The notes beneath the pieces are model-generated. The model searched no databases, was not told where the DNA came from, and saw only the letters and a list, made by a program, of their open reading frames with translations. From a virus: DNA of 24,496 nt. The position numbers and the translations under genes are program-made. The DNA lies in IMG/VR virus record IMGVR_UViG_3300045135_001772, positions 1-24,496 of that record; one strand, given 5' to 3'. The first letter of the stretch is position 1. Each line of letters opens with the position of its first letter. Below are positions 7,106-24,266 of the stretch, one piece after another.

Positions 7106-7111
7106 AAATAA

Positions 7112-7180
7112 GACTCGAAAGAGTCACAGAGGGGAAACGGAGAGACAGGTACAGTTCAGAACTTACCTGTCTTTCTTTTT
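7112..7180 (+). ncRNA. Candidate 65-70 nt small RNA
   Basis: Bounded by promoter 7077-7105 and an intrinsic terminator at 7143-7180, with no start codon between. The 5' end folds as a perfect 5-bp hairpin, GACTC (7112-7116), a GAAA tetraloop, GAGTC (7121-7125). A purine-rich single-stranded linker follows (7126-7142, containing GAGGGGAAACGG), then the terminator hairpin. A stable 5' cap hairpin, an exposed G-rich linker and a terminator is the usual form of a trans-acting bacterial sRNA. A second promoter right after it (7184-7212) drives the next gene, so this is unlikely to be just an attenuator leader. Class unknown. Confidence 0.65.
7143..7180 (+). terminator. Intrinsic terminator of the small RNA
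   Basis: AGACAGGTA (7143-7151) pairs perfectly with TACCTGTCT (7164-7172), and AGTT (7153-7156) pairs with AACT (7160-7163) to extend the stem. TTTCTTTTT follows directly. Strong rho-independent terminator. Confidence 0.85.
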
Positions 7181-7183
7181 ACA

Positions 7184-7212
7184 TTGCTTGTTACTGAATT
7201 TTATGATACTAT
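7184..7212 (+). promoter_or_regulatory. Sigma70-like promoter for SWIM gene
   Basis: TTGCTT at 7184-7189, a 17-base spacer, and TACTAT at 7207-7212, starting four bases after the T run of the previous terminator. The leader to the ATG at 7231 is about 12 bases. Confidence 0.6.
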
Positions 7213-7230
7213 ATAAAAAATGAGGGAATT

Positions 7231-20782: not shown

Positions 20783-20825
20783 AAATTGTAGTATGATATA
20801 TGTACTAAATTTTAAGGAGATACAC

Positions 20826-21728
20826 ATGAAGAACATCAAATGGATTCTTTATCACGAACCTGTTGAAATTTTCTATCGCACTGCTCAACATTTTGAGCGT
20901 GAGGTGAATCGTCTATCAGGCAATAAATTTAACTTTGAAATTCTTGAGTTGAAAGACTACGAAGCAAAGTATAACAATAATCAACCGTGTGATTTATTAA
21001 ATGAACTACGTACTGGTCGAGTTCAAATGAGTCAAATGTATACGATGGGTCTTGCTTTTTCAAATGCTTCAGACTTTTTAGCATTAGGATTACCTTTCTT
21101 GTTTAGGGACCATGCTCACGCAAGTAGAGTTTTTGAAGGTAAAGTTGGTGAGGAACTATTAGAACACGTTAGAGATACACTAAATGTAAAAGGATTAAGC
21201 TTTACATACTCTGGTGGTTATAAAGTAATGGCAAGTGATACTCCAATCAAATCAATAAATGATTTTAATGGACTAACTCATTCTGGCACTAGTAACTCAC
21301 TTTGGAATGATATTTTTGAACAGCTTGGTTCTAAATCAACTGAGTTTGGTTCTCATAATATCACACAAACTACCTTACCTCGTTATCATGCAGACGCTCG
21401 CTCGACACAAAAGTTCTGTACTGATACACAACACTCTATGTATTTAACTTCTATTCTCATGAATCAAGATATGTGGAGCGACTTTGATGATGAAACTAAA
21501 GCGATTTTTAAAGAATCATCTAAAGTAGTAGCTAGACAAGAGCGTAAACAGAGTGTTGCTGATGCTGAAGAGATTGCATCAACAACTTATCGTGAACACG
21601 GTATTGATCAGATTTTTGACTTGTCTGAATCAGATCAAATGGTATTACGTTCAAAACTTACTCCTTTAATTGAAAAGTGGAAGCCTTATTTCACACCTGG
21701 ATTAGTTGATAAAATACAAGCTGCTTAA
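20826..21728 (+). CDS. TRAP-type DctP-like substrate-binding protein without signal peptide
   Basis: A 300-residue protein with AAGGAG before its ATG. It looks like a DctP-family periplasmic binding protein of TRAP transporters: DLLNELRTGRVQMSQMYTMG is the typical second helix-strand, LGLPFLFRDHAHASRVFEG is the family's hallmark, then SGGYKVMASDTPIKSINDFN and a C-terminal helix (VADAEEIASTTYREHGI). No TRAP membrane subunit is nearby. The protein opens MKNIKWILYHEPVEIFY with no signal peptide, so it should stay in the cytoplasm and cannot serve transport in the ordinary way. DctP homologues are known in marine T4-like phages. TATGAT at 20792-20797 could be part of a weak promoter. Confidence 0.85.
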   Translation: MKNIKWILYHEPVEIFYRTAQHFEREVNRLSGNKFNFEILELKDYEAKYNNNQPCDLLNELRTGRVQMSQMYTMGLAFSNASDFLALGLPFLFRDHAHASRVFEGKVGEELLEHVRDTLNVKGLSFTYSGGYKVMASDTPIKSINDFNGLTHSGTSNSLWNDIFEQLGSKSTEFGSHNITQTTLPRYHADARSTQKFCTDTQHSMYLTSILMNQDMWSDFDDETKAIFKESSKVVARQERKQSVADAEEIASTTYREHGIDQIFDLSESDQMVLRSKLTPLIEKWKPYFTPGLVDKIQAA

Positions 21729-22318
21729 TGATACTTTTAGATTCGACCCTTAGTTCCGTTGACTTTATGTCCTTTGTATCTAAGGGTCGTTCTTTATGTA
21801 TAAACATACATGATATTCAGGATGATGAGTGTCACTTAAATTATTGTAACACTTTATTAGGTACAAAAGTAGATCGTGTGCTAGCTATATGTGGCAGATT
21901 TAATGTACATCACCCAATTATCAGAGTATCTCATCCAAAAATTATAACCCTATCTGATCCTCAACACCTTTGGTTAAAGTCTTTGAAATTTAACTATTCT
22001 ACAACTTTTTTATCTCAGAATCTTCGTTGTCAACAACTTTGGCAGGATGGGGTTTGTAAAAACTTGTGGCACCAACCTTTAAAAAATCATTATGAGGATT
22101 TAGTCCAAACAAAAAATATTACACAGAGAATTTTTAACATAGCTGGAAAGGATGGTGTTAATTTAATTTCGTCTATGAATAAAGATACAATTGAAGATCT
22201 TTTTGTTAAGAGAAGTGACAAATTAATGAATTGTAATACAATGGAGCATGATTACTCATTTGCCCGGGTAATTGACGCATTATTGTGGTATAAACTCATT
22301 CCTAACTACGATCTATAA
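21728..22318 (+). CDS. Hypothetical protein after dctP
   Basis: A 196-residue protein starting at TAATG after dctP. It begins MILLDSTLSSVDFMSF and contains RVLAICGRFNVHH and PKIITLSDPQHLWLKSLKF, suggesting alternating strands and helices; no catalytic motif is recognised. It has several cysteines and is coupled to dctP, so a related role is possible. It ends the operon at 22318. Confidence 0.6.
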   Translation: MILLDSTLSSVDFMSFVSKGRSLCINIHDIQDDECHLNYCNTLLGTKVDRVLAICGRFNVHHPIIRVSHPKIITLSDPQHLWLKSLKFNYSTTFLSQNLRCQQLWQDGVCKNLWHQPLKNHYEDLVQTKNITQRIFNIAGKDGVNLISSMNKDTIEDLFVKRSDKLMNCNTMEHDYSFARVIDALLWYKLIPNYDL

Positions 22319-22390: not shown

Positions 22391-22558
22391 ATGATCTGGA
22401 AGTTTTTTACATTGAAAGTGGTTGAATCTAATGGTCTTATTCATAAGGCTACTCTTAAAGAGAAGATTCAGTGGTTATTAGGAGGTTGTCACCTGCGCGA
22501 TGAGAAGGTGTGTAGACGCTTCTCTAAAATGAAACTTACAAAGACCCACCAGTCATAA
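22391..22558 (+). CDS. 55-residue basic protein
   Basis: Starts at an ATG eight bases after GGAG and has its own promoter. It reads MIWKFFTLKVVESNGLIHKA, with two cysteine-containing stretches (GGCHLRDEKVCRRFSK), and is basic. No family is recognised. Its strong promoter and ribosome binding site support a real gene. Its stop lies inside an AT-rich inverted repeat that also covers the next -35. Confidence 0.55.
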   Translation: MIWKFFTLKVVESNGLIHKATLKEKIQWLLGGCHLRDEKVCRRFSKMKLTKTHQS

Positions 22559-22594
22559 AATTTTCACTTTTTAATTGCTCTTTGAAAATTTTAT
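22555..22594 (+). repeat. AT-rich inverted repeat over a -35 element
   Basis: ATAAAATTTTC (22555-22565) is the exact reverse complement of GAAAATTTTAT (22584-22594), with an 18-base spacer containing the TTGCTC -35 at 22575-22580. It could be an operator, or a hairpin marking the end of the preceding message. Confidence 0.6.
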
Positions 22595-22603
22595 TGATAT
22601 TAT
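22575..22603 (+). promoter_or_regulatory. Sigma70-like promoter for large structured RNA
   Basis: TTGCTC at 22575-22580, a 17-base spacer, and TATTAT at 22598-22603. Predicted start about 22610, just ahead of the first hairpin of the RNA. Confidence 0.6.
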
Positions 22604-22609
22604 GTTTTT

Positions 22610-23075
22610 AGAAAATGAGATGAGGCATCATCCTCTGGGCATATGCAACCTTCGGGTATACGTGCGAAAGTTAAAACCAGTTAATGATGCAACGGAGTCA
22701 CGGAACCGGTCTCAGCCTCCTCTTCATTTTCCCCTGCTCTGGGTGACTGAGCCGTGTACCAAACGTCATAGGGTATCCAGGCACGGATTAACAGCTTCCC
22801 AAGCCCCACCTACGAGGCTGCTTGTTAAATATCGCTGGAGTAGGCGCATCGCACAACGCGCAACCGTGCCATCGGCTCTTGAGGGGCAGGGGAAACGATG
22901 TAAAAAACATCCCCAGTTTTTCATCAGGTGTGCTCCTTGGCGGCTGTCGCCTACCACCGTTTAAGTTGAGCACCCTACCACGGCAAGGACTAAGACGTTG
23001 GTTTCGTACAACCATTTTTGGGACGTATGGAAACTGTGCGGTTAGTTCACTCAACAGGCGGGCGAGGGGGCTGTG
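22610..23075 (+). ncRNA. Candidate large ornate non-coding RNA (about 470 nt), class unknown
   Basis: This stretch is clearly GC-richer than the genes: 22741-22920 counts 98 of 180. It has no supported ORF. Helices seen: GAGATGA (22617-22623) with TCAT-c-CTC (22628-22635); ACC-UUCG-GGT (22648-22657), a UUCG tetraloop; AGTCAC (22696-22701) with GTGACT (22743-22748); CCGTGTACC (22752-22760) with GGTA and CACGG (22772-22786); TTAAC-AGC (22788-22795) with GCTG and GTTAA (22817-22828), knotted by CCTAC (22809-22813) pairing GTAGG (22840-22844); GGGG-aaac-GATGT (22889-22901) with ACATCCCC (22907-22914); GTGCTC (22930-22935) with GAGCAC (22968-22973) around GGCG/CGCC (22939-22951). Size, pseudoknot and phage setting recall GOLLD or ROOL RNAs, but I cannot assign it. 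Confidence 0.75.
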
Positions 23076-23681
23076 TTGGGATCTCAAAGTGATTTTGTTG
23101 CTGTAGTTTTTGCAAGACAAGGTGCTGGGGGAGAATTTTTAATGTCTCTATTAAAATCTCACAACAGTAATCTTTGGGATGGGTTTAAGTTTCACTGTTT
23201 TCAACATATTTACACAGGTCCAGAAGAACAACTCTTAAAATTACATCATCATAATCCTAAATTTATTAACGACATTCCATTAGAATTACAACAACCTTTT
23301 GACTATACTTTTGATTTTGAAAGTTGGTCTACTACTGTTCCAAATATCTTTTTACGCTTTGACTTTGAATTACTTAAAAGATTTAGGCAGTACAGAATAA
23401 AAAGACATAGATTGGCTCATATGTTTGCAAATTCATGTGAGCAGTTTGATAAATTATTTGATGAGAGCTTGTTTATCTGTGATAAAAATACTACAGTGAT
23501 TGATTACTTCAATCCTTTGGATACCTACGCTGAGATATGTGATAGATTAGCACTATCAAGTAATGTTAAGCATTTTAAAAATGCTTGGATTAGTTACTAC
23601 AAGTTTCAGATGATGACTGTTCCAAAGTCTGATATTGAATTAAGGGATAGATTTAGAACAGCAATTAAAAATTTAGTTTGA
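23073..23681 (+). CDS. P-loop/sulfotransferase-like protein (weak), unusual start
   Basis: About 202 residues. The N-terminus FVAVVFARQGAGGEFLMSLL resembles the nucleotide-binding strand-loop-helix of sulfotransferase-like P-loop proteins, but the loop lacks a Lys. Later segments (FESWSTTVPNIFLRFDFELL, then LFICDKNTTVIDYFNPLD) fit an alpha/beta fold. Start is uncertain: GTG at 23073 or TTG at 23076, following GAGGGGG; an ATG at 23142 would remove the loop. The start lies inside the 3' hairpin of the structured RNA, so its translation may depend on that RNA. Function unknown. Confidence 0.55.
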   Translation: MLGSQSDFVAVVFARQGAGGEFLMSLLKSHNSNLWDGFKFHCFQHIYTGPEEQLLKLHHHNPKFINDIPLELQQPFDYTFDFESWSTTVPNIFLRFDFELLKRFRQYRIKRHRLAHMFANSCEQFDKLFDESLFICDKNTTVIDYFNPLDTYAEICDRLALSSNVKHFKNAWISYYKFQMMTVPKSDIELRDRFRTAIKNLV

Positions 23682-23840
23682 AGTTGAGGTAAGGGATAAC
23701 CTTCATTAAAAAACCCTCCGCAAAGTCCAAGGGCGAGTTGATAGGAGTATGGAAAGCAAGGCAAGCCGATAATGTGTTACACACTAGGCACTATTCAAAA
23801 CAATCCTTCGCTAGTACAAAAACTACTCTCGCCCATGATT
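23682..23840 (+). ncRNA. Possible structured RNA between genes
   Basis: A 267-base gap follows the P-loop gene; this is its first part. GGGCGAG (23731-23737) pairs perfectly with CTCGCCC (23828-23834), closing about 104 bases. Inside are TGTG-TTA-CACA (23773-23783) and TAGT (23812-23815) with ACTA (23822-23825). No ORF is supported. A tRNA is excluded: no T-loop motif, anticodon arm or CCA end fits. No independent promoter is evident; it may be transcribed from upstream. Confidence 0.4.
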
Positions 23841-23846
23841 TTTGAA

Positions 23847-23875
23847 TTGCTTGTAGGTTATTTTTTTGTTAAGAT
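23847..23875 (+). promoter_or_regulatory. Sigma70-like promoter for 23949 gene
   Basis: TTGCTT at 23847-23852, a 17-base spacer, and TAAGAT at 23870-23875. Start near 23882, leaving a structured leader of about 67 bases. Confidence 0.55.
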
Positions 23876-23881
23876 TGTTTT

Positions 23882-23948
23882 ACAAAATGAGGGAACGGCA
23901 ATGCCTCTAACTATTGCCATCACGCTTTAGAGCTAATCGAGGTGAATT
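23882..23948 (+). promoter_or_regulatory. Leader pseudoknot before 23949 gene
   Basis: GGCAAT (23897-23902) pairs with ATTGCC (23913-23918). The loop sequence CTCTAA (23905-23910) can pair with TTAGAG (23927-23932) downstream, forming a compact H-type pseudoknot of 36 bases. The ribosome binding site AGGTG (23939-23943) lies seven bases further on. This is the arrangement of pseudoknot riboswitches and of autoregulatory sites such as that of T4 gene 32, but no ligand or known class is recognised. Confidence 0.5.
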
Positions 23949-24266
23949 ATGGCTGAAGCAACCCAAAAAGCTGCTAATTATACGGCAGAGATGGTCGATT
24001 CGATGATCGAAATGTATAATGAAGTTGGTAATGACGGCTTGGACGATATTGCCGAAACTTTGGGCAAGACTGTACGGTCTGTCCGTTCTAAACTCGTTCG
24101 TGAGGGTGTGTACGTAGCATCACCTAAAAAGACTGCTGCAAAGCAAGATGGTCCATCCAAGAAGGAAATCTTGCGTGATATCGAGTCTCACGGATTCGAT
24201 GTATCTGGTTTCGAAGGTGCAACGAAAGCTGCACTAACTCGTCTAATCAGCGTAGTAGCTCAATAG
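23949..24266 (+). CDS. Conserved small phage HTH-like protein
   Basis: A 105-residue protein. Residues 10-60 read NYTAEMVDSMIEMYNEVG, then IAETLGKTVRSVRSKLVREG, which matches a helix-turn-helix in which the recognition helix is TVRSVRSKLVREG, as in small DNA-binding proteins. A Lys/Ala linker (PKKTAAKQDGPSKKEI) leads to a C-terminal helical domain ending TKAALTRLISVV. This YTAE..VRSVxxKLxREGVYV pattern is widespread in marine T4-like phages, where its role is not established; DNA binding or transcription control is likely. It has its own promoter and a pseudoknotted leader. Confidence 0.75.
   Translation: MAEATQKAANYTAEMVDSMIEMYNEVGNDGLDDIAETLGKTVRSVRSKLVREGVYVASPKKTAAKQDGPSKKEILRDIESHGFDVSGFEGATKAALTRLISVVAQ

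Follow-up and report, generated by a model that had tools for sequence, protein, structure and literature searches.

The large RNAs of phages known so far fall into only a few classes, whose function is an open question even for GOLLD and ROOL, both of which have been solved as RNA cages. In both, a variable linker (in GOLLD sometimes containing tRNAs) lies between ordered parts, and in the solved cages this linker is found inside the particle (PMC12286853). The RNA described here, designated RNA1, occupies ~480 bases (22609-23080; GC 0.53 against ~0.36) of a record of an uncultivated virus, all 24,496 bases of which were analyzed and are referred to as the window. As far as comparative sequence analysis can tell, it most likely represents a new class of large phage RNA, transcribed independently and acting in trans, which is analogous to GOLLD and ROOL but belongs to neither. 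An earlier note had proposed a promoter-driven, ~470-nt pseudoknotted phage ncRNA outside the known classes at this place, which comparison with relatives supports (covariation, promoter motif, no frame); the accompanying jump to ~54% GC is real as well (0.537 over 22651-22950), whereas “near 30%” was slightly low for the coding lines, the remaining window being mostly at 0.30-0.42. Comparison further revealed a second structured RNA (RNA2), a gene between both RNAs, and a diverged ~1-kb version on another contig (L139).

The resemblance to GOLLD and ROOL, likewise proposed earlier, holds in kind, but not in family, as neither covariance model matches. Like GOLLD, this is a phage/prophage RNA of hundreds of nucleotides with many helices and pseudoknots, its conserved and variable domains being split by an insertion-holding linker (PMC12286853); unlike in GOLLD, the linker here holds protein genes, the lengths are ~480-650 nt (~1 kb in L139), and the GOLLD model (RF02032; 416 positions, cut-off 150 bits) matched none of nine phage records at E<=10, cmscan of the window, relatives and L139 being negative, too. 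ROOL, too, is a large phage/prophage RNA (~600 nt) that has pseudoknots and whose linker varies, but the ROOL model (RF03087; 574 positions, cut-off 99.1 bits) matched 0 of 9 records; as the control genomes were silent too, it is the negative cmscan results (window, L139) that carry non-membership in ROOL. OLE RNA is a large structured bacterial RNA of ~600 nt as well, but no Rfam match to it was obtained here. Anatomically, as a large, pseudoknotted phage RNA whose two domains flank a variable linker that tolerates insertions, the family is most like GOLLD and ROOL. More generally, Rfam 15 yielded no family at gathering score anywhere in the window and nothing relevant at E<=10 (the near-matches Hrs1, Lnt and STnc170 were below threshold), and the Rfam covariance search of the window, relatives and L139 bears out the earlier remark that no class is matched. 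ARAGORN found no tRNA or tmRNA in the window, for which there was no Rfam match either; regarding the location of GOLLD near phage tRNAs, a tRNA adjoins RNA2 in L014 and L004 only. Literature searches, whose coverage of subscription journals and preprints was thin, so that a prior description is possible, returned no description of the RNA1 family. A relative of the phage carries a sub-threshold match to YrlA (Y RNA-like; L015:2762-2862, 41 bits, E 1e-5).

The minimum folding energy of the single sequence is ordinary on either strand (z -0.34 and -0.27), which makes the claim undecidable from one sequence and comparison decisive. Relatives were sought in IMG/VR using the downstream 105-aa DNA-binding-like protein (23949-24266; phrog_1725) as bait; about a dozen distinct contigs have RNA1 homologues at 70-75% nucleotide identity, with more diverged ones besides. 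L003-L006 and L009-L011 contain the stretch entirely or for the most part (mostly 70-75% identity), L007 and L008 its end; DNA patterns derived from the alignment added L049, L051, L052, L056, L134, L139, L144 and L145, and a profile of the 105-aa protein added L064 and L065. The family is known from ~15 contigs, all uncultivated. No convincing homologue was found by blastn of the window and the L010 RNA against isolate phages (L139 gave weak matches, limited to its promoter stretch), and scanning 84,980 bacterial and archaeal species, each represented by a single genome, for patterns returned chance matches only; the pattern matches L137, L140-L143 and L149-L167 were rejected as chance, mostly coding. 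The neighboring proteins (23139-23681 and 21728-22318) recovered no useful relatives as bait, distant relatives reached via the 105-aa gene (~70% identity or less) showed neither RNA1 nor RNA2, and the GC islands and GCGGG..GGGGC motifs seen in these are of different sequence, apparently terminators. Phage typing by Gp23 gave no match, its control being silent too. A conserved 55-aa protein with third-position bias and no known family is encoded upstream of RNA1 (22391-22558) and was not seen in L064/L065; elsewhere, the DctP-type solute-binding protein gene of the window (20793-21728; Pfam 9.5e-30) and the apparent TctC/TctA-like transporter genes of L003 (by eye) are metabolic cargo.

Readable ORFs of 94-129 aa and the unremarkable folding energy could be taken to mean that the stretch is a protein-coding segment that has diverged or decayed, or is GC-rich by chance, a reading that the comparative data already refute and whose probability is negligible. 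Changes are spread evenly over the three codon positions between the window and L009 (0.21/0.25/0.25) or L010 (0.23/0.25/0.24), and the indels are mostly non-multiples of three (1, 2 and 5 bases being common) and break the frame, so that coding is excluded for RNA1, no reading frame is conserved, and the earlier statement that the stretch has no supported ORF stands. The flanking 105-aa and 55-aa genes differ from RNA1 in this pattern (the former showing 0.15/0.07/0.45 and zero indels), and the covariation set out below is strong.

Structures were derived from sequence-only MAFFT alignments, in which helices were drawn up manually, guided by RNAalifold, and paired cells were counted; the covariance models were short-calibrated, and significance was judged against a tree-aware null (own script in the R-scape manner) preserving both the tree and the number of substitutions on each branch. 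As the helices were chosen after viewing the same alignments, the structure-restricted test is somewhat favorable to them. All 228 cells of the 5′ domain (12 sequences) are paired, with 16 cells changed on both sides, five pairs double-sided, a covariation of 0.219 (vs. 0.085 +/- 0.018 shuffled and <=0.042 slid) and two pairs significant among the proposed ones; the UUCG tetraloop pointed out earlier is present, but caps a variable hairpin. The middle domain is weaker than the others (91% of cells paired, 8 changed on both sides, covariation 0.128 vs. 0.079 shuffled), its consensus folding being no better than that of column-shuffled alignments (z -0.67). Its CCUAC/GUAGG pseudoknot sits where the earlier note had placed it, and pairing is kept while both sides change in relatives (end pair CG in 5, GC in 5 and GU in 1): CCUAG/CUAGG, a C-G to G-C swap, is found in L009, L010, L011, L049 and L144, and a UUACUCU/AGAGUAA helix takes its place in L004 (by eye). 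The TTAACAGC helix that it was said to cross proved window-specific; the crossed helix is better described as CAAG/CUUG, which is conserved in 10 of 12 rows and replaced by CGAU/AUCG in the other two.

The three helices of the 3′ domain are 98.6% paired, with 28 cells changed on both sides, covariation of 0.487 (vs. 0.177 shuffled) and four significant pairs (proposed pairs only). The GUGCUC/GAGCAC stem has the alternatives ACGCUC/GAGCGU and GAGCU/AGCUC in alignment A3; the GACUAA/UUAGUU helix is 97% paired, with 5/6 pairs changed on both sides and two significant against the tree-aware null; and the 3′ hairpin stem occurs as CAAC/GUUG, GACC/GGUC or UAAC/GUUA. When all column pairs were tested (12-13 sequences), 0, 1 and 1 were significant in the 5′, 3′ and RNA2 alignments, one of them within the structure. 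Consensus folding energy, a test using no hand-picked helices, lies far below that of column-shuffled alignments, at z of -3.9 (A2), -8.4 (A3), -7.1 (A4) and -8.9 (full RNA1). Covariation, the test proposed with the original claim, is present across domains and significant for proposed pairs of the three main alignments (5′ domain, 3′ domain and RNA2), and the nested, multi-helix and pseudoknotted character of the RNA is confirmed by helices and a pseudoknot that covary among relatives without a conserved reading frame, as befits a large structured phage ncRNA. Judged from these alignments, it is the shape of RNA1 rather than its sequence that is preserved among related phages.

Features of the RNA1/RNA2 locus, in window coordinates
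Feature	Position	Strand	Elements	Basis
RNA1 promoter	22575..22603	+	TTGCTC 22575-22580, 17 nt, TATTAT 22598-22603	Sequence; motif recurs at window ORFs and in relatives
RNA1 5′ domain	22609..22733	+	AGGC 22623-22626/GCCU 22715-22718; AUCAU 22627-22631/AUGAU 22684-22688; CUGG 22635-22638/CCAG 22677-22680; GCA 22639-22641/UGC 22663-22665; GAG 22695-22697/CUC 22711-22713; variable UUCG-capped tip	Five covarying helices; CM R1 127.8 bits
RNA1 middle	22781..22872	+	GGCAC 22781-22785/GUGCC; CAAG 22800-22803/CUUG 22823-22826; pseudoknot CCUAC 22809-22813/GUAGG 22840-22844; GCGC hairpin	
RNA1 hairpin	22927..22975	+	GUGCUC 22930-22935/GAGCAC 22968-22973, enclosing invariant loop UGUCGCCUACC 22945-22955	
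RNA1 helix	22988..23047	+	GACUAA 22988-22993/UUAGUU 23042-23047	Covariation
RNA1 3′ hairpin	23050..23080	+	CAAC 23052-23055/GUUG 23075-23078; conserved GCGGG...GGGGCU	
202-aa ORF, no known family, between RNA1 and RNA2	23073..23681	+	Possible GTG/TTG starts inside RNA1 3′ hairpin	
RNA2 (~160 nt)	23679..23835	+	H-type pseudoknot GAAG 23680-23683/CUUC 23701-23704 and AGGG 23692-23695/CCCU 23714-23717; closing helix GGGCGAG 23731-23737/CUCGCCC 23828-23834	Covariation; CM R2 180.9 bits in window
Promoter and 5′ leader of 105-aa gene, outside the RNA	23847..23948	+	TTGCTT-N17-TAAGAT	phrog_1725 gene match

The loop UGUCGCCUACC is invariant in 12 sequences though the stems supporting it differ, and it is such invariant loops on covarying stems, together with the phage setting and phage-type promoter, that would suit a trans-acting decoy or inhibitor, whose conserved loops (UGUCGCCUACC; GCGGG..GGGGC) titrate or block a host defense protein, RNase, ribosome or RNA polymerase, the RNA then being no scaffold; as no Rfam similarity (E<=10) to rRNA, tRNA, tmRNA, 6S or other known RNAs was seen, this explanation is considered rather unlikely.

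The promoter motif TTGCTC-N17-TATTAT, as read in the earlier note, is present, recurs at six window ORFs and is kept immediately upstream of RNA1 in the relatives holding that stretch; a generic sigma-70 scan made no call on it. The broader motif TTGC-N(18-20)-TATNNT has 9 copies in the window against 4.8 expected (1 of 100 shuffles reaches as many), and of seven plus-strand copies six lie just upstream of an ORF (beginning at 602, 3746, 7231, 8795, 13298 and 22391) and one upstream of RNA1, the phage-wide plus-strand form TTGC[TC]-N17-TATNNT being located at 544, 3695, 7077, 8746, 13234, 22331 and 22575. A terminator was not found in the window; L009 has a terminator-like hairpin after RNA1, followed by another gene. 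Two further leaders were observed: one of ~125 nt (7106-7230), which contains hairpins (GACTCGAAAGAGTC, ACAGGTA/TACCTGT) and separates a phage promoter from a 76-aa ORF, and that of the 105-aa gene (23880-23948), with a possible H-type pseudoknot (GAGG/CCUC, loop GGCAAU pairing AUUGCC) for which relatives carry GGAAC/GUUCC instead (both by eye), which suggests a covarying regulatory leader.

RNA2 has 97.1% of cells paired (13 sequences), 31 cells changed on both sides, 11 pairs double-sided, covariation of 0.244 (vs. 0.094 shuffled) and six pairs significant against the tree-aware null (proposed pairs only), one of them of its pseudoknot, whose stem 1 occurs as GAAG/CUUC, GUCG/CGAC, GAUG/CAUC or AGUG/CACU and stem 2 as AGGG/CCCU, AUGG/CCAU or AAGG/CCUU. 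In L003, L004, L064 and L065 it follows RNA1 by at most ~15 nt with no promoter between, so that both probably belong to a single RNA in these relatives; in L006, L010, L011, L051 and L056 a ~50-nt promoter-bearing linker separates them, and in the several relatives where RNA2 has its own promoter they may be separate RNAs. The 202-aa ORF of the window is absent from L003, L004, L006, L010, L011, L056, L064 and L065, and the linker genes of the window (202 aa), L005 (198 aa) and L009 (211 aa) are different genes at the same site, for whose proteins Pfam offered no convincing family; in L004 and L014 a gene, with a tRNA, lies behind RNA2. Small, differing genes without known family, sometimes with a tRNA, form a hotspot on either side of RNA2 (window 23073-23681; L005:4116-4712; L009:4056-4691; L004:930-1589; L014:279-887).

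Two further explanations deserve mention. Were RNA1 and RNA2 a cis-acting leader or attenuator controlling read-through and translation of the genes behind, it would make sense that in the window and L005 the RNA1 3′ hairpin offers possible starts (GTG TTG) to the inserted ORF, that no promoter is visible for RNA2 in the window, and that in the window lineage RNA2 is followed downstream by the 105-aa gene; there is, however, no constant downstream gene, as relatives have a different one or none, the 105-aa gene is served by a promoter of its own, a terminator-like hairpin follows RNA1 in L009, and the complexity and length of the RNA exceed those of usual leaders, which makes cis control unlikely. 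A ribozyme, or a mobile RNA that resembles a group I/II intron or stems from a mobile element with the inserted gene as its cargo, would account for an ORF that lies between two structured parts and is exchanged among relatives, but is very improbable: Rfam shows no group I or II intron, HEARO or ribozyme family at E<=10, the flanking ORFs are intact and no gene is interrupted, the inserted proteins have no Pfam endonuclease, transposase or reverse transcriptase match, and RNA1 and RNA2 persist without the ORF.

The 3′ neighbor of RNA1 is not fixed, being RNA2, a terminator-like hairpin and a gene (L009), the 198-aa ORF (L005) or non-coding sequence (L139). The last is a 107-kb contig, on which a copy of RNA2 is followed by ~1 kb of GC-rich non-coding sequence; this block starts with the 5′ domain (105.8 bits), holds a second RNA2-like module (43.8 bits) and has a terminator-like end, after which an unrelated gene follows. 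The ~1.5 kb at L139:8438-9960 are a succession of non-coding, GC-rich elements accompanied by promoters of the phage type and by terminator-like sites, and a AATTAGATTCGG[AG]CGAA motif is common to L139 and L059 near position 140. In sequence terms, the RNA1/RNA2 family looks like one built from modules.

Promoter position, helices, two pseudoknots, non-coding nature and variable linker all emerge from comparison. The reading preferred here, with a probability of about 0.5, is that RNA1 is an independently transcribed large structured ncRNA of an uncatalogued family acting in trans, together with RNA2, as a scaffold-type RNA; action in trans is favored because the neighboring gene is not constant and terminator-like sites occur in L009 and L139. 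RNA1 would be transcribed from the phage promoter in the course of infection and act through its fold, and with RNA2 would form one two-domain ~650-nt RNA in some relatives, being split elsewhere by a promoter-bearing linker or an accessory gene, the linker presumably being a tolerant site where small genes lodge. As a scaffold like GOLLD or ROOL, it might, in the form of an RNA oligomer or a ribonucleoprotein, hold something inside the infected cell, the choice of scaffold over decoy being a judgement at about even odds. A bolder version, in which a new class of giant phage RNA consists of exchangeable structured modules (5′ domain, pseudoknot module and 3′ hairpin), forms a higher-order particle in the infected cell and accepts whole protein genes in its internal linker, is doubtful. 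The alignments and models make the RNA class directly testable, and, being unrelated to GOLLD and ROOL, with clear covariation, modular variants from ~480 to ~1000 nt and a gene-taking linker, it would provide an independent test of whether large phage RNAs share a job.
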